Made by a program: the position numbers and the translations under genes. This document shows, piece after piece, positions 4,603-18,359 of a DNA stretch of 18,359 bases (positions within the stretch are counted from its first letter, which is position 1; each line of letters opens with the position of its first letter). Under the pieces are notes generated by a model, which had not been told where the DNA came from, made no database searches, and saw only the letters and a list, made by a program, of their open reading frames with translations. This DNA comes from an uncultured Flavihumibacter sp. (lineage in GTDB: Bacteria; Bacteroidota; Bacteroidia; Chitinophagales; Chitinophagaceae): the NCBI GenBank assembly GCA_946482545.1, contig CAMLRX010000105.1, forward strand, positions 1 through 18,359, read 5' to 3'.

Positions 4603-6012
4603 CTACTTTTTAAACAACCAGTAATCAAAATTGAACAGCTCCCTTCCCGCAGTAACATTTTGTCCCTTGAATGAAAAATACACATCGTGCACCCCCGTAA
4701 CCGAATTAGCCACCGTTTCCGTAAAAGTCTTCCAGGCATCCCAACCTCCCGTGCGCGACACATTAATAGCAACGATTTTCGTTCCACCCACGCTATCGGC
4801 ATATACTTCCAGCACACCGCCACCCAATCCCGCGGCAATAGATGCCGTGAACGTTTTAGGCGCTTCTTTTCCAAAATCAACATTGCGCACTTTGATGTAC
4901 CCGCCATTCCTGACATCCGATACAAAAACACCTGTCTTCGGATGCTGGTCCGTTTTACAGTTTACCGCCCACGCGATAGTTTCAGCCTCTGTTTTCTGGT
5001 AAGGATTCAACACGCCTACCGGTGCCGGCCCTTCCTTCGAGATGTTAACCTGCGGAATAGTACCATCCGGATTATAACTAAACGACTCTATCGAACTGGA
5101 GCGCCCGTAACTACCGCCACCTTTCAACAATGCTGTGTGGTAAAACAAATATGACTTCCCTTTATAATCAATGATACCACCATGGTTGGTAAAACTGTTC
5201 GTCGGCTGCTCGGTCATGATTTTGCCTTTGTACACCCAGGGACCGGTGGGGCTCTTGCTCATGGCATAAGACAAACACTCCTTCCCTTTCTCCATACCGG
5301 CATACATCATATAATAGTTGCCGTTCCGCTTATAAAACCAGGGACCTTCTACATACATATCCTTGATTTCCGGCCGCTTCTCGTTCGCGTTGGGCGCATT
5401 GCCATTACCGCGCGGCGGCCGCACGCCGCCAAAAGTTTCAACAGTTTGAGGGATTTCATTGATCGCTCCGGAATAGGAAATCATGTCCTTGTTCAACTTC
5501 ACGTAATACAGGTTCGGATTCCCCCAATAGAGATATGCCTGCCCATCGTCATCCACAAAAACCGTGGGGTCGATATTGTACCAGGTTCCTGTGGTGATCA
5601 GCGGCTTGCCGAGGGCATCCTTAAAAGGCCCGGTGGGACTATCCCCAACAGCCACACCAATAGACATATTGTTCTGTTCCGTTTGCACACAGATGTACCA
5701 ATAAAATTTTCCATTGCGTTCAATACATTGCGCAGCCCAGGCCCGGTCGCGCGCCCAACTGAAAGATTCCAGCGCCAGCGGAATACCGTGGTCCGTCCAG
5801 TTCACCATATCGGATGAAGAAAATACGCGCCAGCGGGTCATGTAATAAAAATCAAACCCGGGAATATCATCACCGGTGTACATGTACACTTTGTTGTTGT
5901 ACACCATGGGAGCCGGATCGGGCGTATAGGAAGTCTGAACAACGGGATTTTGCGCATTGGCATGCAGCCCCGTCAACGAAATGGCCAGCGCCATTAAAGC
6001 ATTTCTTTTCAT
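4603..6012 (-). CDS. Glycoside hydrolase family 43 enzyme with C-terminal CBM6-like module
   Basis: A 469-residue secreted protein. Residues 1-20 are a signal peptide (cleavage likely after HANA). Residues about 25-330 form a five-bladed GH43 catalytic domain with the three expected acids: Asp32 (general base, YTPDPAPMVY), Asp148 (NIDPTVFVDDDGQ) and Glu222 (general acid, MYVEGPWFY). Residues about 339-469 begin QKTEAETIAW and end ELFNFDYWLF, the pattern of a CBM6-type carbohydrate-binding module. The VFSSSDMVNWTDHG segment resembles the arabinofuranosidase/xylosidase branch that trims arabinoxylan; exact activity is uncertain. It follows susD on the same strand, but a terminator (6192-6223) separates them, and a LacI-type operator (6098-6111) lies 86 bases upstream of its ATG. 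I find no good terminator between it and the tRNA. Confidence 0.9.
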   Translation of the reverse strand: MKRNALMALAISLTGLHANAQNPVVQTSYTPDPAPMVYNNKVYMYTGDDIPGFDFYYMTRWRVFSSSDMVNWTDHGIPLALESFSWARDRAWAAQCIERNGKFYWYICVQTEQNNMSIGVAVGDSPTGPFKDALGKPLITTGTWYNIDPTVFVDDDGQAYLYWGNPNLYYVKLNKDMISYSGAINEIPQTVETFGGVRPPRGNGNAPNANEKRPEIKDMYVEGPWFYKRNGNYYMMYAGMEKGKECLSYAMSKSPTGPWVYKGKIMTEQPTNSFTNHGGIIDYKGKSYLFYHTALLKGGGSYGRSSSIESFSYNPDGTIPQVNISKEGPAPVGVLNPYQKTEAETIAWAVNCKTDQHPKTGVFVSDVRNGGYIKVRNVDFGKEAPKTFTASIAAGLGGGVLEVYADSVGGTKIVAINVSRTGGWDAWKTFTETVANSVTGVHDVYFSFKGQNVTAGRELFNFDYWLFKK

Positions 6013-6097
6013 ATTGCGTTTGTTGAGTATCGTTAGATGGTTTATGAAAGGGTTATTGACATAGAAACGACCGATTTATACGGATTTTAATCCAAAA

Positions 6098-6111
6098 TGA
6101 AATCGGTTACA
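6098..6111 (-). promoter_or_regulatory. LacI-family-type operator upstream of GH43
   Basis: TGAAATCGGTTACA on the plus strand matches the general LacI/PurR/CcpA-type operator pattern TGnAAnCGnTTnCA at all ten fixed positions, and the symmetry extends to AAATG...CATTT (6095-6114). It is nearly identical to the site at 16740-16753 (12 of 14 bases when that one is reverse-complemented) and has the same orientation towards its gene. The regulator is not in this window. Confidence 0.65.
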
Positions 6112-6134
6112 TTTCTACCGGAACGCAATATAAA

Positions 6135-6161
6135 AAATAAATGTAGAAAGTACATTTATTT
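6135..6161. repeat. Perfect 11-bp A/T-rich inverted repeat upstream of GH43
   Basis: AAATAAATGTA (6135-6145) and TACATTTATTT (6151-6161) are exact complements around GAAAG. On the minus strand it is followed by further T residues, so it might act as a weak second terminator. Its place between the susD terminator and the LacI-type operator fits an operator for another regulator equally well. Confidence 0.6.
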
Positions 6162-6191: not shown

Positions 6192-6223
6192 TAAAACAAA
6201 ACCAGCGGAGAGAACTCCGCCGG
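6192..6223 (-). terminator. Intrinsic terminator after susD
   Basis: On the minus strand CCGGCGGAG pairs with CTCCGCTGG (one G-U) across a TTCT loop, followed by TTTTGTTTT. It lies 28 bases after the susD stop and separates the import genes from GH43. Confidence 0.85.
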
Positions 6224-6251
6224 TACGATTGAAAATTGCTATAAAAGAAAA

Positions 6252-7883
6252 TCAGTAGCCCGTATTCTGGGAAAGATTTTTATTGATGTCCCTTTCCGAT
6301 TGCGGGATGGGCCACAACTCGTTGGTTCCTGCTATAAAATTCCGTTTGTGCAACAGGAAGTACCCTTCCGCATCCACGGGAAACTTCGTATAATTACCGG
6401 GATTGGTGGTCAGTTTCATGCCGGTGAACTGCCTGTTGAGTTCCTGAGCCGCGATGCCCCAGCGCAGGATATCATAGTACCGCAGTCCTTCAAAAGCGAA
6501 CTCCACCCTTCTTTCCCTGCGGATGATTTTCATAAGTTCGGTGGTATTCGTGGTGGCAACAGCCGGCATGTTAACCGTGGCGCGTCCCCTAACCAGGTTG
6601 ATCGTATTGTTCAGCAAAGACTGGTCTATTGTTTTTCCGGACTCCACCATACTTTCAAGATAACTCAGCAACACTTCAGCATAACGGATGATGGAGAAAT
6701 TCCCGCCATAGTTCATGAGGTTACCCGAGAAGCCTTCGTCCATGAATTTGCTGATGCAATACCCGCTCCACACGGCATATTTGTTCATCCTGTCGGGGGA
6801 GGAAGTGGAATCAGGGTGCGCTTTGTACACCTGTCCTTTGAATACTGATCTATCGGAAATGAGCAGGGTATAATCAAGGCGGGGATCACGGTTCTCGTAA
6901 GGCTTATCCGGATTATACAACGGCGATTCAGTAACCGGTTTACCATCGGTGCATTCAAATTCCTTCGCGAGTTCGTTGTAAGGAGAAAACTGGTGCCATC
7001 CGCCCCATGCTTCGGGGTAGAGGTATTGCAGCATTACATGGCTGTACACATCCTGCTGGAACTGCGAACTGAGCACCACTTCATTGTTCAGTTCATTGGC
7101 CTGCCAGAAAAGGCCCTTGTAATAAGGTTGAATGCTGTAAACATTGTTGTCGATAATAGTTTTGTAAGTGGTTACCGCATCTTCCCATTTTTTTGCGGCC
7201 ATCTGCAACCTCCCGAGAATGGCGAGCGCCGCGCCGGCTGTAATACGGCCATTTTCAGCGGCCGGTCTGGAAGGGGGCAATACCGGAGCGCTTTCTTTGA
7301 GTTCTTTTTCCGCGAAGGCCCATACTTCATTCTTAGCAGTTCTGGACACACTGTTCGCTTCATCCACCGTGAGCACTTTTGTAACCAGTGGCACATCGCC
7401 GAAATATAAAGCCAGGTTGAAGTATTCGTATGCCCGGAGTGTTCGCACTTCAGCCGTAAAAATGGCTTTTTTATTGGCGTCCATCGTGATGGCATCAATG
7501 TGCGACAGGAAGTTGTTGCAGGTGGCGATCTTTGCGTAGGAACTCTGCCAGTAACCACGGGTCACCCAGTAATCGGAAGTGAGTGTTCCGTCTGTTACGT
7601 GGTCGGGGATCAGTTCTTTCTCCGATCCGTTGCCGGCCATGAGGTCAAGATACAACAAACCTCTGGGCATCCAGAAGTCCTCTCCTTTCCAGCCGCCGCC
7701 TGTATTGTAACACCCTACCAACGCCAGTTGCGCATCGTTTTCTGTTTTCCAGAACGTGGCGTCGGAAACAGCGTCCAGCGGTTGTTTGTCGAAAAAATCT
7801 TTTTTACATCCGGCCATCCACATGGTCATGGTTAACAAAAGGGCACCGAAAGTATATTGCTTTATGACAAGTAATTGTTTCAT
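6252..7883 (-). CDS. SusD/RagB-family outer-membrane glycan-binding lipoprotein
   Basis: A 543-residue lipoprotein, typical SusD length. The leader ends in a lipobox-like MAGC with the acylated Cys26, followed by KKDFFDKQPLDAVSDATFW, the characteristic start of SusD proteins. The N-terminal half carries the TPR-like helices (for example VRTLRAYEYFNLALYFGDVPLV), and the C-terminal half the SusD_RagB region with RRERRVEFAFEGLRYYDILRW and the closing LWPIPQSERDIN. It sits on the cell surface as the lid of the SusC channel and delivers oligosaccharides to it. It begins 18 bases after the susC stop, so the two are co-transcribed. The bound glycan cannot be read from sequence. Confidence 0.95.
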   Translation of the reverse strand: MKQLLVIKQYTFGALLLTMTMWMAGCKKDFFDKQPLDAVSDATFWKTENDAQLALVGCYNTGGGWKGEDFWMPRGLLYLDLMAGNGSEKELIPDHVTDGTLTSDYWVTRGYWQSSYAKIATCNNFLSHIDAITMDANKKAIFTAEVRTLRAYEYFNLALYFGDVPLVTKVLTVDEANSVSRTAKNEVWAFAEKELKESAPVLPPSRPAAENGRITAGAALAILGRLQMAAKKWEDAVTTYKTIIDNNVYSIQPYYKGLFWQANELNNEVVLSSQFQQDVYSHVMLQYLYPEAWGGWHQFSPYNELAKEFECTDGKPVTESPLYNPDKPYENRDPRLDYTLLISDRSVFKGQVYKAHPDSTSSPDRMNKYAVWSGYCISKFMDEGFSGNLMNYGGNFSIIRYAEVLLSYLESMVESGKTIDQSLLNNTINLVRGRATVNMPAVATTNTTELMKIIRRERRVEFAFEGLRYYDILRWGIAAQELNRQFTGMKLTTNPGNYTKFPVDAEGYFLLHKRNFIAGTNELWPIPQSERDINKNLSQNTGY

Positions 7884-7901: not shown

Positions 7902-10900
7902 TTAGAATTTCACATTCACGCCAAAAGTGTACACGCTGGTGATGGGATAGAACGGACTATTATCACCTGTTGACTGGCTCATTTCCGGATCCCATCCCTG
8001 GTAGAAATTGTTGATAGAGAAAAGGTTCTGACCGCTGAAGAATATGCGGCACCTTTCAATACCGGCTTTTCCAACCACCGAGGCGGGAAGTGTATAGCCC
8101 AACTGGATATTTTTCACCCGGAGGAAAGACGCGTTCCTGTTCCAGAAAGTGGAAGTAAGAATGGTTCCGCTCCCCATGTTCAGTTTACTCATTTTAATAT
8201 ACTGCGCATTGGGATCAGGATTATCCGTAGTCCAGCGGTTATCCGCCTGCCAACGTTGTACCTGGCCGCTGTTGTAGAACGCGAAAGCCTGGTAGGAACC
8301 CATTTGTTTTTCGAAGCCACCCAGTCCGTGCAGCAATACCATCAGGTCGAACCCTTTGTAATCCGCGGTGAGTGTGGCGCCAAAGGAATATTTGGGAAAG
8401 GTGGAGCCGATGATGGTACGGTCGTAAGTAGCATCTACTTTTCCGTCGGGAATACCATCGGGACCACTGATGTCTTTGTATTTTACGAAACCGGGTTCGG
8501 CCGCGTAAGGTTGTGCCGGTGACCTCGCAATATCTGCGGCATCAACAAATAGGCCATCCGCCACATATCCATAGATCGCGTTCATCGGGCTGCCAACGAA
8601 CAATCCCTTACTGATATCTTCCTCTAATCCCCCGCCGAGTTTCGTGATGCTGTTCTTTACATAAGAGAAGTTGGGTGAGATGCCAAAATTGAAATCACCG
8701 ATCCTGTCCCGGTAATTCAGCAACAATTCAAAACCGGTATTCTTCACTTCTCCCGCGTTCACTTCAGAAGTTCCGAGTCCCAGCACACTGGATACCGTGA
8801 TGTTGTAAAGAATATCAGAGGTGGTTTTATTGAAATAATCGAATACCAGTCCCAGTTTTCCGTTGAAGAAATCTGCATCCAGTCCAATGTCTGTCACCTG
8901 TGTTTTTTCCCAGGTAATGTTGCCGTTCGCGAGTGTTGTCACCCTTGCACCGGAAGCCAGAGCGCCGCCGAAAGTATAGTTCTGCCCCAGGCTTAACAGG
9001 TTCTGGTAGGGATAGTTTCCTACATTCTGATTACCCAGTTTACCCCAGGAAGCGCGGAGTTTCAGGTTGTTGATCCAAGATACGTTATCGCGCAGAAAGT
9101 TTTCTTCAGAAATTCTCCAGCCTGCGGAGAAGGAAGGGAACACACCCCATCTTCCTTCTGATGGAAACCTGGAAGTACCGTCATACCGGGCATTTGCTTC
9201 CAATAAATATTTGCCGTTGAAATTATAATTGATGCGTCCGAAGTACGACCGGAGCGCCCACTCGGAGCCGGAACCGAAGGCCTGCATGTTGCTGGCCGCT
9301 CCGGCATTTATTTCGTACAATTCATTATTGGGGAAATTATCCCTGAAAGCGCGTGTCCAGTCTTCCCGGAATTCTTCCTGCGAAAAACCCGCGAGCGCAC
9401 TGATGGTATGGTCACCAAAAGTTTTGGTATAGTTGGCGAGCGCCTGCAGGGTGAGTAAAGAGTTGTCTCCGGACTGAACGGAAAGATTACTTGGCCCTAC
9501 GGTTTTGAACTGATCGAACACGAAGGTGGAAGCGAAACTGTTGTCGGCATAATTCGTATAGTTGTAGCCCGCTTTTCCGGTAAGCGTGAACCCTTTGAAT
9601 GCTTCCCAGGCCAGTTCGGCACCGCCGAGGAAGAATTTGTTTTTACGGTTCACGAATGATTTACTGTCGAGCCAGGCTTCAGGACTGTAGTTGTCCTGGT
9701 AACCGTAAGTGCCGTCTGATTTTTTTCCCGCGAAAATCGGTCCCTGCCTTACGGCGAAACCAATCATGCTGGTCATTTCGCCATCGTATTGCCGGGGTTC
9801 ATCGGTATTCGCGGCGTTCCCACTCAAGTTCACGCGCAGCGTAAGGTTATCTTTCAGCTTGCTGTCGAAGTTGAGGAGAATATTGTATTTATTGTACGTA
9901 TTCTTTCTTACCAGACCATCCTGCGACAGGTATCCCACAGAGAACAAATAAGTATTCTTCGCGTCGCCACCCGTAAAACTCAGGTTGTGGTTGGTCTGAA
10001 ATCCGGAACCTGAGTTGAGCAGGTTTTTAAGGTGCGGCACATTGGGAAAATTATCAGGATCTGAACCATCGCGGAACTTCTCAATATCGCTGGTGCTATA
10101 GGTTGGTGATTGTCCGGCATTCACGTTGGCTTCGTTGGTGAGCGTGGCGAATTCCCATGATGGCACAAAATCGGGGAGTTCGGTCACTTTCTGCCAACCC
10201 ACGTAACTGTTGTAACTGAGTTGAAGTTTGCCCCGTTGCCCCCGTTTAGTTTCGATGAGGATAACGCCGTTGGCGGCACGTGTTCCGTATATGGAAGCGG
10301 AAGCGGCATCCTTCAGCACGGAAATACTTTTGATGTTGTTCGGATCCACATCATTGATGGAGGAAGCGAGTCCGTCCACCAGTATCAATGGACTGTTGCC
10401 TGCACCGGAAAAGGTGCCCAATCCCCTGATGGTAATGCCGGCGCCATCGTTTCCCGGCCTTCCTGAACCCTGTGCTATTGTTACCCCACTGGCAAGTCCC
10501 GCAAGGGCTTGTGAAGCCTGGGTAATAGGCCTGTTTTCAATATCTTTCGCGGACACACTCGACACTGCTCCGGTAAGGTTTACTTTTTTCTGTGTGCCGA
10601 AGCCCACCACTACTACATCGTTCAAACTATTGGCAACAGGTGTGAGCACCACCGTAACGGTTGCCGCGCTGCCCAAGGGTACTTCTTTGGTTTCGTAACC
10701 AACGGCACTTACCACCAGCACACCTTTATCGCCGGGAATATTCAGTTCAAAAGATCCGTCGGCCGAAGTCGCTGTACCAATACCGCTTTCCTTCTCCTGC
10801 ACGGTAGCACCTTCCACCGGCGCACCATCCGCAGCCAGCACTTTACCTGTGAGCGTTCTTGCATTCATGGTACCCGCGTCCGGCTTCTCCTTCGAAGCCG

Positions 10901-11264
10901 CTGCATCAGTTATCCTGGTGAGAAATACCCGCGCCCGCTCATCTACATCCACCCTTATGTTCAGGGGCGTGAGCATCCTTGCGAATAATGTTTCAAGGCG
11001 TTCATCCTTTGCTTCTACGGTGATCCGCCTGTCTGTCATGATTAATTCAGGACTGTAATACAAGCGTACACCCGTTTTCGTTTCCACCTCTCTTAATACT
11101 TTTTTCAAAGCCGCTTCTTTTACGGAGAGCGTCACTTTTTTGCTGAGTGGCGACTGGCCCAGGGTTTCGCTCGCAAACGAATTGAGGAAAGTGAGCAACA
11201 CGATGAGTGGAATAGCAGAAATTTTCATAATGGCGATACCAATGGAAATAATTGAATTTCTCAT
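7902..11264 (-). CDS. SusC/RagA-family TonB-dependent transporter with N-terminal STN signalling domain
   Basis: A 1120-residue outer-membrane transporter. In order: signal sequence (to about 37, ending ASETLGQ); STN domain (about 43-120, beginning KKVTLSVKEAALKKVLREVE); CarboxypepD_reg-like beta sandwich (136-210); the SusC hallmark DVVVVGFGTQKKVNLTGAV (216-234); plug with SVLKDAASASIYGTRAANGV (315-334); then the 22-strand barrel ending FGVNVKF. The STN domain is the part that contacts FecR in cell-surface signalling, so this protein probably both imports glycan and reports it. The frame is open up to 11378, but the extra N-terminus is not leader-like. I chose the ATG at 11264 (MRNSIISIG); the ATG at 11228 (MKISAIPLI) is a real alternative. 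It lies 173 bases after fecR. Confidence 0.95.
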   Translation of the reverse strand: MRNSIISIGIAIMKISAIPLIVLLTFLNSFASETLGQSPLSKKVTLSVKEAALKKVLREVETKTGVRLYYSPELIMTDRRITVEAKDERLETLFARMLTPLNIRVDVDERARVFLTRITDAAASKEKPDAGTMNARTLTGKVLAADGAPVEGATVQEKESGIGTATSADGSFELNIPGDKGVLVVSAVGYETKEVPLGSAATVTVVLTPVANSLNDVVVVGFGTQKKVNLTGAVSSVSAKDIENRPITQASQALAGLASGVTIAQGSGRPGNDGAGITIRGLGTFSGAGNSPLILVDGLASSINDVDPNNIKSISVLKDAASASIYGTRAANGVILIETKRGQRGKLQLSYNSYVGWQKVTELPDFVPSWEFATLTNEANVNAGQSPTYSTSDIEKFRDGSDPDNFPNVPHLKNLLNSGSGFQTNHNLSFTGGDAKNTYLFSVGYLSQDGLVRKNTYNKYNILLNFDSKLKDNLTLRVNLSGNAANTDEPRQYDGEMTSMIGFAVRQGPIFAGKKSDGTYGYQDNYSPEAWLDSKSFVNRKNKFFLGGAELAWEAFKGFTLTGKAGYNYTNYADNSFASTFVFDQFKTVGPSNLSVQSGDNSLLTLQALANYTKTFGDHTISALAGFSQEEFREDWTRAFRDNFPNNELYEINAGAASNMQAFGSGSEWALRSYFGRINYNFNGKYLLEANARYDGTSRFPSEGRWGVFPSFSAGWRISEENFLRDNVSWINNLKLRASWGKLGNQNVGNYPYQNLLSLGQNYTFGGALASGARVTTLANGNITWEKTQVTDIGLDADFFNGKLGLVFDYFNKTTSDILYNITVSSVLGLGTSEVNAGEVKNTGFELLLNYRDRIGDFNFGISPNFSYVKNSITKLGGGLEEDISKGLFVGSPMNAIYGYVADGLFVDAADIARSPAQPYAAEPGFVKYKDISGPDGIPDGKVDATYDRTIIGSTFPKYSFGATLTADYKGFDLMVLLHGLGGFEKQMGSYQAFAFYNSGQVQRWQADNRWTTDNPDPNAQYIKMSKLNMGSGTILTSTFWNRNASFLRVKNIQLGYTLPASVVGKAGIERCRIFFSGQNLFSINNFYQGWDPEMSQSTGDNSPFYPITSVYTFGVNVKF

Positions 11265-11268
11265 AAAT

Positions 11269-11282
11269 TGCAATCGTTTAGT
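11269..11282 (-). promoter_or_regulatory. Partial LacI-type operator match just before susC
   Basis: On the plus strand TGCAATCGTTTAGT fits TGnAAnCGnTTnCA at eight of ten fixed positions and shares the octamer TGCAATCG with the reverse complement of the 16740-16753 site. It sits 4 bases upstream of the chosen susC ATG, an odd place for an operator unless it blocks elongation, so it may be chance. Confidence 0.25.
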
Positions 11283-11437
11283 TGATTGTTGAAGATTTAC
11301 TGAACAAGCCGTACGGCGCAACCACGCTTTAGTACAGCACCGGGCCTGTAATGCTTCCAACATTGCGGGCCCTTTCATAAAGGGAATTCTCTTTTACAAC
11401 AGTTGTCCTGGTTTTATGGTGAAGGAATAAAATACAC

Positions 11438-12574
11438 TTACCTACAACCTTTCGAATACACCACCACATTGCCGTCCACCACCTCGTAGCGGGCGTTGAT
11501 AATACGGCATACCACATCCAGTTTTTCATAGAAAGGTTCATCTTCCAGCACAGCCGTTACCGAACATTGTGCCATGATGTTTTCATCAAAAAGAACCGGG
11601 ATACCATAAGCATGTTCCAGTTGTTGAAACACTTCTGCCGCGGGCCTGGCCTCAAACCTGGTCACAATAGGGCTGCCACCTAAAACAACGGGACTTCCCA
11701 CCACATCTTTCTCCAGCAACAAGGTTTTTGCGTTCAATTTCACTTGCTGGTTTGGCATCAGTAATATTCCGCCGGGCTGTGTTCCTTTCTTCTTCGCCGC
11801 AACAAATGCTTCGGCCTTAAAAACAGAAACCTTTCCGGTTTTCACCTTTACCCCCACTTCATTCGAGCCTGCACCGGCATTTACCCAAAAGCTTGTGCCC
11901 AAAACCCTGGTTACTATTTTCCCGGTGTATACCACAAAAGGATGGTCCTGGTCTTTGATGACATTGAAGAAAGCCGCGCCTTCCAGGAAAACCGCTCTTT
12001 CCCCATTGGCGCCATTCCTGTTGCAAACAAGTCTTCCGCCCTTCATCAGTTCCACCTTGGAGCCATCTTTCAATACCACAGCCATTACCGTATCCGTATT
12101 GTTTACATATTCCACATTTCCGCTGGTTGTAGCGGCACGGAAAGATTCGAGTGAAAGTTCCCGCGCAACTGAATTATCCTGATAACCACGCAACGCCAGC
12201 CAACCGGCCAACAATAAAATACTTGCAGCGGCCCACCAGTATTTCCTAAACGAAAGCATGACTTTAGAACGCCCGGTATTACGGAGTTCTGGCAATGCTG
12301 CGGCAACCGGCACTTCGTGTGCCTCCTCATCCGCAATGCGCGCCATCAGTTTTTCCACCTCAACTTCCACTTCAGCAGGAGACAATTCTTCCTGCGCGGA
12401 AACAAGTGTTCGTACCACGAGGTTGGCCGTGGCCACCCATTCAATCTTATCGGGATTTTCAGCGAGCCATTGTTGCCATAGCAGGGCATCTTCCTCGCTG
12501 TTATCAAGGATCCATCTTCTGAAAGAAGCGCTGGCTATAATGTCGTCGATATTCCTGATGATGGGTTGTGGCAT
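11438..12574 (-). CDS. FecR-family anti-sigma factor
   Basis: A 378-residue single-pass inner-membrane protein. Residues 1-110 are cytoplasmic and acidic and should bind the sigma factor. A membrane helix YWWAAASILLLAGWLAL spans about 112-128. The periplasmic FecR domain covers about 150-255 (VVLKDGSKVELMKGGRL, FLEGAAFFNV, PFVVYTG, RVLGTSFWV, TGKVSVF). The last ~70 residues (VTRFEARPAAEVFQQLEHAYGI onward) are the DUF4974-type domain of Bacteroidota FecR proteins, which resembles STN. It follows the sigma gene by 71 bases and precedes susC by 173. Its role by family is to hold the ECF sigma until the STN domain of SusC signals substrate. Confidence 0.93.
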   Translation of the reverse strand: MPQPIIRNIDDIIASASFRRWILDNSEEDALLWQQWLAENPDKIEWVATANLVVRTLVSAQEELSPAEVEVEVEKLMARIADEEAHEVPVAAALPELRNTGRSKVMLSFRKYWWAAASILLLAGWLALRGYQDNSVARELSLESFRAATTSGNVEYVNNTDTVMAVVLKDGSKVELMKGGRLVCNRNGANGERAVFLEGAAFFNVIKDQDHPFVVYTGKIVTRVLGTSFWVNAGAGSNEVGVKVKTGKVSVFKAEAFVAAKKKGTQPGGILLMPNQQVKLNAKTLLLEKDVVGSPVVLGGSPIVTRFEARPAAEVFQQLEHAYGIPVLFDENIMAQCSVTAVLEDEPFYEKLDVVCRIINARYEVVDGNVVVYSKGCR

Positions 12575-12645: not shown

Positions 12646-13257
12646 TTAGAAAAAAAGTATTCCAAACGCAAGCAGCATCAACTCATGCCCATTTGCGCGG
12701 AAAGAAAGACGTTTCAGTCTGGTGATGGAAAGGTGAAGCAGGTTATACACCGCTTGCCTGCTTAATCCCATGATCCTGGCGATCTCGTCATGGTCGGCCT
12801 CCAGGTAAAAACGGAGGTAAATAATTTCCTGCTGGCGGCGCGAAAGCGTGCCGAGGATGCGAAACACAAGTGCGCTTCTCGCGGTACTTTCTTCCTGTAA
12901 AGTCCGCAACAACTCAGGAGATTCAATATCGGCAGGCAGAAAGTGTTCAAATTCCAGGGGCACGGCCAGGGTGCCTTTTTTTGCGTTCAGCAAACGTTCG
13001 ATTTTCCGCCGCAACGCTTTAAACAGGTAGTTCCTAACGGACGCCGTTTCGCCGATGTTGGCCCTGTTCTTCCACAATACCAGGAACAATTCCTGGATGG
13101 CGTCTTTCACAAGTTCGGGATCGCTGGTGAATTTTTTACCGTAATCGTACAGCAGCGCGTAATGCTTTTTTACAAGCTGCTCCAGGCACGACTGGTCTCC
13201 GTTTCTAAAACCTGTCCACAATAATTCATCGCCGTTCCTCACTTCCATGGCAAACAT
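12646..13257 (-). CDS. ECF-type RNA polymerase sigma factor (SusC/FecR-linked)
   Basis: A 203-residue ECF sigma-70 factor with region 2 at about 24-90 (DQSCLEQLVKKHYALLYDYG, DAIQELFLVLWKNR) and region 4 at about 133-185 (LGTLSRRQQEIIYLRFYLE, then the helix-turn-helix EIARIMGLSRQAVYNLLHLS). It probably directs transcription of the import genes downstream (fecR, susC, susD) when released by FecR. ATG at 13257 is used; in-frame ATG at 13248 is as likely. The last residues, ELMLLAFGILFF, are strongly hydrophobic, which is unusual for a soluble sigma and could tether it to the membrane or to FecR; this is inference. Confidence 0.93.
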   Translation of the reverse strand: MFAMEVRNGDELLWTGFRNGDQSCLEQLVKKHYALLYDYGKKFTSDPELVKDAIQELFLVLWKNRANIGETASVRNYLFKALRRKIERLLNAKKGTLAVPLEFEHFLPADIESPELLRTLQEESTARSALVFRILGTLSRRQQEIIYLRFYLEADHDEIARIMGLSRQAVYNLLHLSITRLKRLSFRANGHELMLLAFGILFF

Positions 13258-15219: not shown

Positions 15220-16125
15220 TTACGATGCCGCTTCGTGGTGAAAAGCTTTTTTATATTCACGCGGCGACTTAAACATCACCTGTTTGAACTGGTGGTTGAA
15301 ATGCGAAATATTATTGTACCCGCACATAAAACTGATTTCAGACACCGTAAGGTCATCTTCCAGCAATAACCTGCATGCGTTCCAGACCCGAACCTCCGTA
15401 AGGAACTGGAAATAACTTTTGCGCGTGCGGCTCTTGAAAAAACGGCAAAAAGAATGTGGCGACATGTGCACCAACGCAGCCACTGATTCGAGAGAAATCT
15501 TATCGCCGTAATTGCTCATCGTATAATCGAACACTTTCGATATCCTGGATTGATCGGGAATACTTACATGGTTGGAATACCCGTTGGCAGACAATAACGT
15601 ACCGCTATTTTCTTCTGCCATCCGCTCCAGCAAAGTAAACAGCAGAATAAGCCGTTTCACTGGTGTTGCAGCCACCATTTCCTCCATCAGTCCCGCAACC
15701 TCTTCCGCCAACGCGCCTGTAAGCCGGATGCCATTGCAGGCGGCCTGGAACAATTTCCGGATAGAAGCCGTTTCAGCACTGTTCAGAAAAGTACCCCCCA
15801 TGATGCCGGGTAAAAACTTCACACATACGCTGCCACCGTTATTCATACCCGTTTCATCCAGCACCACCGGTTCGTGGTGGAAACAATGCGGCAGATAAGG
15901 ACCCAGCAAGAATACATCTCCTTTACTGAAACGCCCCGCATGGTCGCCGATCAAACAAACACCTTCTCCCTTTTTCACATACACGATTTCCAGCTCGGGA
16001 TGGCAGTGCCAGTTGTTGGCAAGATCTTCCTCCAACTGCTCACGTACCGCAAGTGTCGCTTCCTGTATGGGCATTGACCACATCAGGTCCTGAGGGATAT
16101 TCGTAAAATGTTTCTGATCCATCAC
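15220..16125 (-). CDS. AraC-family transcriptional regulator with cupin sensor domain
   Basis: A 301-residue regulator. The N-terminal cupin (about 36-85) shows WHCHPELEIVYVKKGEG and FSKGDVFLLGPYLPHCF, the usual sugar-sensing fold. The C-terminal ~100 residues carry two helix-turn-helix units: ISLESVAALVHMSPHSFCRFF (210-230) and LTVSEISFMCGYNNISHFNHQF (259-280), closing with the family FKSPREYKK. It likely activates neighbouring PUL genes on binding a sugar. It is flanked by GH29 (convergent) and the esterase operon (divergent, 770 bases away), so either or both may be targets. No TAnnTTTG promoter is apparent; start ATG at 16125 or the adjacent ATG at 16122. Confidence 0.95.
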   Translation of the reverse strand: MMDQKHFTNIPQDLMWSMPIQEATLAVREQLEEDLANNWHCHPELEIVYVKKGEGVCLIGDHAGRFSKGDVFLLGPYLPHCFHHEPVVLDETGMNNGGSVCVKFLPGIMGGTFLNSAETASIRKLFQAACNGIRLTGALAEEVAGLMEEMVAATPVKRLILLFTLLERMAEENSGTLLSANGYSNHVSIPDQSRISKVFDYTMSNYGDKISLESVAALVHMSPHSFCRFFKSRTRKSYFQFLTEVRVWNACRLLLEDDLTVSEISFMCGYNNISHFNHQFKQVMFKSPREYKKAFHHEAAS

Positions 16126-16299: not shown

Positions 16300-16710
16300 A
16301 TCATCCTGAACATGCGGCTGTTTTTATAAAGAAGAAGCGGGAAAAACGCCACAGAAAATGGCTGGAGATATAGCATTGGCAAATCGTTTATTATGAACAT
16401 AGCGGCAACCAGTGTAGCATTCGTTTATACATATCCGTCTTAACGTGTATTCACCCCACGATTCCATAAAAAAGAAAAGGAACTACACCAATCACAAAAC
16501 ACACATAAATGCTGCAAAAGCAACCTTGAGACCACAACAAATTTATCGCCATCTCATTAGCTATCTTTATCCTAAACAGACTTTCTATTATACAAAAGAG
16601 ACCCTTCCCCTTAACCACAAAGCGCACAGCACACCTTCACAAGAGAATTAACTTATGGCATAAAACACCATAACGTTCATCAGCAGTAACCCCTGCTTTC
16701 CGAAAAAAAA

Positions 16711-16741
16711 TTTGCAGGAACCAATCAAAACAATAGTTTTG
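16711..16741 (+). promoter_or_regulatory. Consensus Bacteroidota promoter of the esterase operon
   Basis: TTTG (16711-16714), a 19-base spacer, then TAGTTTTG (16734-16741), an exact match to TTTG-N19-TAnnTTTG, the housekeeping-type promoter of Bacteroidota. It is the best promoter in the window. The start site should fall a few bases downstream, inside the LacI-type operator. Confidence 0.75.
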
Positions 16742-16753
16742 AAACCGATTGCA
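16740..16753 (+). promoter_or_regulatory. LacI-family-type operator overlapping the esterase promoter
   Basis: TGAAACCGATTGCA matches TGnAAnCGnTTnCA at all ten fixed positions. Its first two bases are the last two of the -7 element, so a bound repressor would cover the transcription start. It shares 12 of 14 bases with the reverse complement of the GH43 site (6098-6111), and both read AACCGATT-n-CATTTT towards their gene. Confidence 0.7.
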
Positions 16754-16841: not shown

Positions 16842-18044
<1,203 letters not shown>

Positions 18045-18073: not shown

Positions 18074-18359
18074 ATGCGCCCACACCATTTTCTTGTATGC
18101 GTAGTAATCCTTATTTCCGGTTCACTCCTGGCCCAGCCACCCAGAGGGCCGATGGTGATTTCACCACAGGTCCATCCTGATAAGAAAGTCACTTTCCGAT
18201 ACCTGGCCCCACTGGCAAAAGAAGTAAAGCTGAGCGCCCAGTTCGAGAAAGCCCCGCTTTCCATGACCAAAGATTCCATCGGCATTTGGAGCGTAACTAC
18301 CAACTCGGTAAAGCCAGATATCTATCCCTACAGCTTTGTAGTAGATGGCATTACCGTGA
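18074..18359 (+). CDS. Second CE1-type esterase, N-terminal part (3' truncated by window edge)
   Basis: An open frame from the ATG at 18074 runs off the window, giving 95 codons. It has a signal peptide (MRPHHFLVCVVILISGSLLA, then QPPRG) and an E-set domain (VTFRYLAPLAKEVKLSAQFE, GIWSVTTNSVKPDIYPYSF, VVDGITV) like the gene before it. The catalytic part is outside the window, so the esterase call rests on the shared N-terminal domain and tandem position. It starts 29 bases after the previous stop with no terminator between, so both belong to one operon. Confidence 0.75.
   Translation, partial: MRPHHFLVCVVILISGSLLAQPPRGPMVISPQVHPDKKVTFRYLAPLAKEVKLSAQFEKAPLSMTKDSIGIWSVTTNSVKPDIYPYSFVVDGITV

Follow-up and report, generated by a model that had tools for sequence, protein, structure and literature searches.

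PULs of Bacteroidota are usually read as self-contained blocks under one local switch, and a tandem susC-susD-susC-susD/GH10 xylan PUL with an HTCS is a known architecture. In Xanthomonas, a LacI-type XylR with the box TGGTAGCGCTAACA controls scattered xylan genes, TonB-dependent importers included. Local LacI regulons of the RegPrecise collection are described, in the passages of PMC4052901 that concern them, as controlling sugar-use genes, with autoregulation in 72% and with more than 75% of the sites located 30-140 bp before start codons. At the locus studied here, a GH43 gene and a group of esterase genes are probably co-regulated by a LacI-family repressor of (arabino)xylan use, two predicted sites being its operators.

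The window (the whole stretch of DNA analysed, 18,359 bases) was scanned on both strands for exact matches to the LacI-type pattern TGNAANCGNTTNCA and two were found, both intergenic and 10.6 kb apart: a putative operator of GH43 at 6098-6111, reading TGTAACCGATTTCA on the minus strand, and a putative operator of the esterase operon at 16740-16753, reading TGAAACCGATTGCA on the plus strand. The exact scan agrees with the first-pass annotation, which had reported at these positions two full LacI-pattern sites sharing 12 of 14 bases and facing their genes in the same orientation: the gene-strand sequences are identical at 12/14 bases, the asymmetric core ACCGAT is equally oriented towards the gene in both, and both are even palindromes with a central CG, a feature of LacI operators. 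Neither the identity nor the orientation was retained as evidence, 112 pairs of 14-mers in the window's intergenic DNA being equally alike, and equal orientation weighing little because the site is near-palindromic and is reversed in the relative G1079. The evidential weight comes from two full LacI-type palindrome matches, both intergenic and both before xylan-type enzyme genes. In an order-1 simulation, 0.035 exact matches were expected in the whole window and none of 400 simulated windows held more than one; with the simulation confined to the 3,526 intergenic bases, 0.005 were expected and 1 of 4000 held two or more. When two mismatches were allowed, 12 matches were found for 11.74 expected, which is chance level. 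The start codon of GH43 is 85 bp from its operator, inside the 30-140 bp range of the LacI collection, and that of the esterase 142 bp, just outside it.

The GH43 gene (4603..6012, minus strand) encodes an enzyme of xylan type with a CBM6 module (PF04616, 1.7e-52; PF03422, 2.1e-24), whose best solved relative is a xylan 1,4-beta-xylosidase (8hcj). The window's importer, SusD (6252..7883; PF07980) and SusC (7902..11378; TIGR04056), is on the same strand and outside the proposed regulon; that strand also carries a FecR anti-sigma gene (11438..12574; PF04773) and an ECF sigma gene (12646..13257; PF08281, TIGR02937), both of which likely control susCD. The plus strand carries a CE1-type (feruloyl) esterase gene (16896..18044; PF00756), the first of its operon, with solved relatives 6mou and 7b5v (carbohydrate esterase family 1) and 6rzo (ferulic acid esterase), followed by the start of a second esterase gene (18074..18359), an open frame cut by the window end, the counterpart of which in the close relative G869 matches PF00756. 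Pfam matches also identify a class I aminotransferase gene, an ammonium transporter gene, an alpha-L-fucosidase gene (plus strand) and an AraC-type regulator gene (15220-16125, minus strand). Labels such as CE1, CE6, GH51 and GH29 are in part the customary equivalents of the Pfam families. Through their solved relatives, the GH43 enzyme and the esterase both point to feruloylated arabinoxylan, which we infer to be their target.

In the esterase promoter, a TTTG at 16711..16714 (plus strand), which we take to be the -33 element, places its TTG 19 nt before a perfect TAnnTTTG -7 box, TAGTTTTG, found by script scan at 16734..16741, and the operator overlaps this TTTG-N19-TAGTTTTG arrangement. With the Flavobacterium -7 box TAnnTTTG placed at -12 to -5, as given in the pertinent passage of PMC9723704, the predicted span of the esterase operator is -6..+8. 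For GH43, the script scan gave a weak and tentative -7 box of TAnnTTGY type, TATATTGC (6125..6132, minus strand), identical in G869 and with no TTG at 18-20 nt spacing from it; given this box, the GH43 operator would tentatively fall at +10..+23. Just upstream of the box stands a perfect inverted repeat, AAATGTA-N5-TACATTT (6139-6157), with arms kept and spacer altered in G869, possibly the site of another regulator. Two conserved stretches of 25 and 17 nt (16560-16602), some 140-180 bp ahead of the esterase operator, are perhaps a site of the neighbouring AraC-type regulator. An intrinsic terminator with a 10-pair stem and a T-rich tail is predicted between susD and GH43 (6201..6224, minus strand), inside a 36-nt stretch identical in G869; one terminator-like stem was found in this gap against 0.4 expected in shuffles. 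This terminator suggests that GH43 is most likely a transcript separate from susCD, with some read-through conceivable. The same conserved stem (6224-6201) speaks against membership of GH43 in the window's susCD operon.

G869, a 4.8-Mb genome of a close relative reached via class and family searches, is the one genome of its genus in the comparison set. Its GH43 and esterase proteins are respectively 96% and 98% identical to those of the window and both window operators are unchanged in it (C1:2923610 and 2936019). In the alignment of the esterase intergenic region (813 columns, 70% identity), the promoter-operator block forms the longest identical run, 36 nt (P = 0.00075 for such a run in a simulation with independent columns). 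The GH43 intergenic region is 82% identical over 257 columns and holds the operator in an 18-nt identical run; longer runs of 36 nt (the terminator), 30, 28 and 22 nt are present as well, so the conservation of the GH43 site is consistent with function, but not distinctive. G869 carries two additional open frames (L208 7117-9707) that separate its ammonium transporter gene from GH43 and are missing from the window.

The general pattern occurs 19 times in G869 against once for the reversed control. A crude frame caller places 8/19 sites inside frames; one of the eight is the esterase site, the frame there being an upstream extension of the esterase gene itself. A longer, 18-bp motif, WWTGNAAYCGRTTNCAWW, was derived from the flanks of 16 G869 sites, and with at most one mismatch it is found at 24 places in this genome (control 1), a count that is partly fitted because the motif was extended after viewing G869, which makes the relatives the fairer test. 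The surroundings of 22 of these 24 places were examined, 3404592 and 3848223 being left out, and 14/24 places precede 11 carbohydrate or lacI units. These units are the window's GH43, the window's esterase operon, a second GH43-CBM6 gene, an arabinofuranosidase gene (GH51 type), GH67, GH115 (two sites), GH97, a unit with GH31 as third gene, a susC-susD pair (two sites, one of them in a 111-aa frame taken as spurious), the divergent HTCS/tandem susCD-GH10 promoter (two sites) and a lacI gene of the clade described below. The places 917098, 1438056 and C17:128677 are in coding frames, 279420 lies between convergent genes, behind an amylase gene, 3023321 stands before a TonB receptor/DUF4249 run, and 3605613, C17:37630 and C17:217234 have neighbours not assignable to such units. 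Among 13 relatives, TGNAAYCGRTTNCA was found 81 times in total against 10 for the control and exceeded it in 12/13, the exception being G1079 (2 against 3). In four more distant genomes the counts of general pattern and control were 12/4, 5/8, 9/6 and 15/6, thus clearly above the control in two, slightly in one and not in one. A different LacI-type site pair, TGAAAACGTTTTCA-like, surrounds a lacI and a pfkB sugar kinase gene in G869 (C1:2393140 and 2395942) and probably marks a separate sugar regulon.

A lacI gene was found within 300 bp downstream of 7/35 sites, in six genomes, where 0.022 would be expected under uniform placement, a lenient null since operators lie between genes. The count covers 35 of 38 sites, with three further sites of G1056 omitted and G869 excluded, and its six genomes are the relatives for which lacI genes were also listed. 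The G846 site C1:389625 was rejected as lacI-adjacent and is outside the seven, the adjoining gene not being lacI, which is the next one. All seven site-adjacent lacI genes group in a single clade (support 100/98), with 18 rows in a tree of 28. The tree is limited to lacI genes from fetched stretches, many of which were chosen for holding a site; the seven genomes in which lacI genes were listed have 90 PF00356 matches. Clade proteins start with TIYDIA or TIYDLA, as does one row outside the clade, from G846. An exact site is present in the own promoter of 8/18 clade lacI genes, most of the stretches having been fetched for holding a site. In G1056, three clade lacI genes within 16 kb (C1:608387, 609517 and 623595) are each preceded by an identical TGCAACCGATTGCA.

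A matrix was trained solely on seven sites that stand beside lacI genes in other genomes, namely six from the count above and one from G860. On the window it gave 22.0 for the esterase operator and 21.1 for the GH43 operator, with the next best position at 11.5, and 2 Mb of simulated sequence held no position scoring 20 or above. Another matrix, built on 12 sites with a smaller pseudocount, reached 22.9 in 1/60 simulated windows; across matrices, the GH43 operator scored 21.1-23.6 and the esterase operator 22.0-22.3. Taken together, the lacI proximity, the single clade and the independent matrix indicate that the binder of both window sites is very probably a LacI protein of this clade. G869 has 11 PF00356 matches, three of which are in the motif-linked clade, and clade LacI proteins are located at L211:14089-15123, L210:18859-19923 and L181:8946-9974. 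The G869 protein 3047964 has GH67, GH115, an MFS sugar transporter, GH43 and GH3 in its neighbourhood, 3031879 has two weaker sites in its own promoter and the promoter of 110818 is without a site of note. The candidacy of 3047964 as sole regulator is weakened by the sites in the 3031879 promoter.

The idea that both palindromes would be conserved in the upstream regions of orthologous PULs, put forward by the first-pass annotation as a check, was borne out in part: both sites are intact in G869, but the exact site is found in the own promoter of 0/12 other GH43 orthologs examined. Among the sites listed, an exact one of the class lies within 30 kb of the GH43 ortholog in 6/12 genomes (G1079, G846, G943, G1015, G1165 and G948), this cut-off having been chosen after viewing the data. 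No site was found in the 40 kb read around GH43 in G1056 and G834, and no matrix hit of at least 15 in the 40 kb around GH43 in G841, G1010 and G938, despite a clade lacI 14-21 kb away. The G1083 esterase (73%), the only other close one among 394 genomes, is without a site. In 80 GH43 loci, mostly of Bacteroidales (1.42 Mb), there was no exact site, with two matrix hits of at least 15 and none of at least 20, and the plasmid collection gave no match.

At the head of a same-strand gene run in G1079 stands a single site, in reversed orientation; the run begins with a CE1-type esterase gene, continues with BD-FAE, GH8, a double esterase, an arabinofuranosidase and a SASA esterase, and ends with the GH43 ortholog. 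In G1015, G943 and G846, the GH43 ortholog directly follows a susC-susD-susC-susD-lipoprotein run, and in G1165 it is further along from the tandem-susCD run. The orthologous five genes are present in G869 (45-54% identity), followed by GH10 with CBM4_9, at 3.15-3.17 Mb, about 230 kb from the G869 GH43 ortholog, which is at the window's locus. In the G1015, G943, G846 and G1165 loci, the best matches of the window SusC reach only 25-31% identity. The site pairs of G1015 and G943 stand at an HTCS gene that shares 42-43% identity with the G869 one. LacI-class site pairs at HTCS genes (G869 C1:3165088/3165230, L246 10086/10163 and L247 9155/9233) are spaced by 142, 77 and 78 bp in the three genomes, suggesting a LacI layer over the HTCS. 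Two GH43 paralogs of G948 have between them a frame (L188 14521-15561) that by eye looks transposase-like, a possible route of GH43 mobility.

The first-pass annotation had also described the enzyme regulon as distinct from the import genes. For the window this stands, its susCD being without an exact site, separated from GH43 by the predicted terminator and preceded by ECF sigma/FecR genes, but two other susCD loci, in G869, have the operator class in front of them, and all 14 bases of the window's GH43 site recur in G1165, 206 bp before a susC. This distribution fits a separation from import that is true only for the window's ECF/FecR susCD and not for the regulon as a whole.

The grouping of GH43 with the esterases as one regulon, on the other hand, is well supported at the sequence level by the lacI-adjacent operator class, the conservation in G869 and the G1079 run, and the two very probably belong to a common xylan regulon. 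When no sugar is available, the LacI repressor would occupy both operators, covering the end of the -7 box and the start point at the esterase promoter and probably blocking just downstream of the start at GH43. Upon xylan breakdown, an effector, probably xylose, a xylo-oligosaccharide or an aldouronate, would release the repressor and allow joint transcription of GH43, on a transcript of its own and not as a tail of susCD, and of the operon of three CE1-type esterases, GH3 and GH97, the GH3 of the G869 esterase operon being above the Xyl3A cut-off. GH43 adjoins the tandem-susCD PUL in three relatives and is elsewhere here, where it would keep its membership of the regulon through its own operator; relocation is the presumed direction of change, and the acting repressor would be one of the three paralogs. 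The system, as predicted, is like a local LacI regulon in the way it works, most of the LacI-operator features tested being present.

As to the repressor itself, two or three LacI paralogs of the same clade may share a common motif, with GH43 and the esterases mainly under different ones in overlapping regulons. This is a tenable proposal, if one that falls well short of an even chance, and its probability overlaps with that of a shared LacI repressor because it is a sub-case compatible with LacI control. It draws on the three clade members in G869, on motif-class sites around two of them (beside GH67/GH115 for 3047964 and in its own promoter for 3031879) and on the identity in 14/14 bases between the GH43 site and the 3023323 site, which heads a run upstream of the 3031879 lacI. 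However, the window sites differ from each other at 2/14 bases, both of them N positions of the pattern, which leaves little to tell paralogs apart, and G1079 puts both enzymes behind one site. It is also conceivable, but unlikely, that the main control is exerted by the AraC-type gene (15220-16125), an HTCS or a Crp-like factor and that the LacI sites are minor. The conserved block 16560-16602 upstream of the esterase promoter and the perfect inverted repeat 6139-6157 before GH43 imply that more factors probably act, and systems with TonB-dependent transporters for beta-1,4-xylan are regulated by LacI-family proteins or HTCS according to the statement made on them in PMC12125979. These blocks, compared by eye, are nevertheless not common to both promoters, whereas the LacI-type site is.

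Slightly less likely again is the binding of a LacI-family protein that acts as an activator or as a global, CcpA-like catabolite regulator and not as a local xylan repressor. CcpA or RbsR models give the best scores for the three clade proteins of G869, although all are below cut-off (191.6-204 bits for a curated CcpA cut-off of 442.35), the nearest solved chains to 3047964 are those of CcpA, and a G948 site lies between lacI and a transketolase gene. For activation, LacI genes of Roseithermus located near hemicellulase genes are upregulated on xylan and are called activators by the authors in the corresponding passage of PMC7409140. The esterase operator, on the contrary, overlaps the -7 box and the start point, which is a position for repression, and the identified G869 units are mostly hemicellulose genes. 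Finally, that the two matches are due to chance is very improbable: the pattern with two mismatches is indeed at chance level and one of the 60 simulated windows did score 22.9, but there are two independent exact sites, both are conserved in G869, and a matrix trained without them selects these two and no others.

If a shared LacI repressor controls GH43 and the esterases, as we prefer, an enzyme gene adjoining susCD appears to be part of another, genome-wide regulon, so adjacency alone would mislead on both the substrate of the importer and the control of the enzyme. A broader proposal comes close to an even chance without reaching it: a LacI master repressor may gate the whole xylan programme of the lineage through paired operators in the divergent HTCS/tandem-susCD/GH10 promoter, a short, portable operator having let enzyme genes such as GH43 leave the PUL. 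If this were true, the usual HTCS switch would itself be under a monosaccharide-type repressor, and GH43 would have settled beside an unrelated ECF/FecR importer yet still be xylan-responsive. The motif together with the LacI clade offers a tool for predicting hemicellulose regulons in Chitinophagaceae-like bacteria, Niabella being the source of the nearest named proteins.

No regulon of this kind appeared among the listed titles and abstract openings of open-access papers. The Xanthomonas XylR resembles the present case in its LacI-type control of xylan genes and differs in its box (TGGTAGCGCTAACA) and its phylum. The LacI regulons of RegPrecise, as presented in the passages of PMC4052901 on this family, share the even palindrome with central CG and the control of sugar-use genes, whereas the collection had one Bacteroides group, and the Bacteroides LacI regulators named in these passages, UxaR, UxuR and KdgR, serve uronates and not xylan. 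XylR of Bacteroides thetaiotaomicron (BT0791) likewise controls pentose use but is an NrtR-family protein in the account given in the part of PMC3878776 that treats it, unlike the LacI-type palindromes found here. In Gramella flava, likewise of the Bacteroidetes, a xylan PUL includes lacI among xylanase, xylosidase, susCD and xylose genes; the passage in PMC5306329 names the lacI gene only, with neither an operator nor a regulon. The tandem-susCD/GH10 architecture with HTCS is present in G869 at 3.15-3.17 Mb and differs from the known one by the two LacI-class sites in its divergent HTCS/susC promoter and by a GH43 ortholog located elsewhere. The newer part would be a putative LacI layer over an HTCS/susCD xylan PUL, and a GH43 gene that seems to have departed from the PUL with its own operator.
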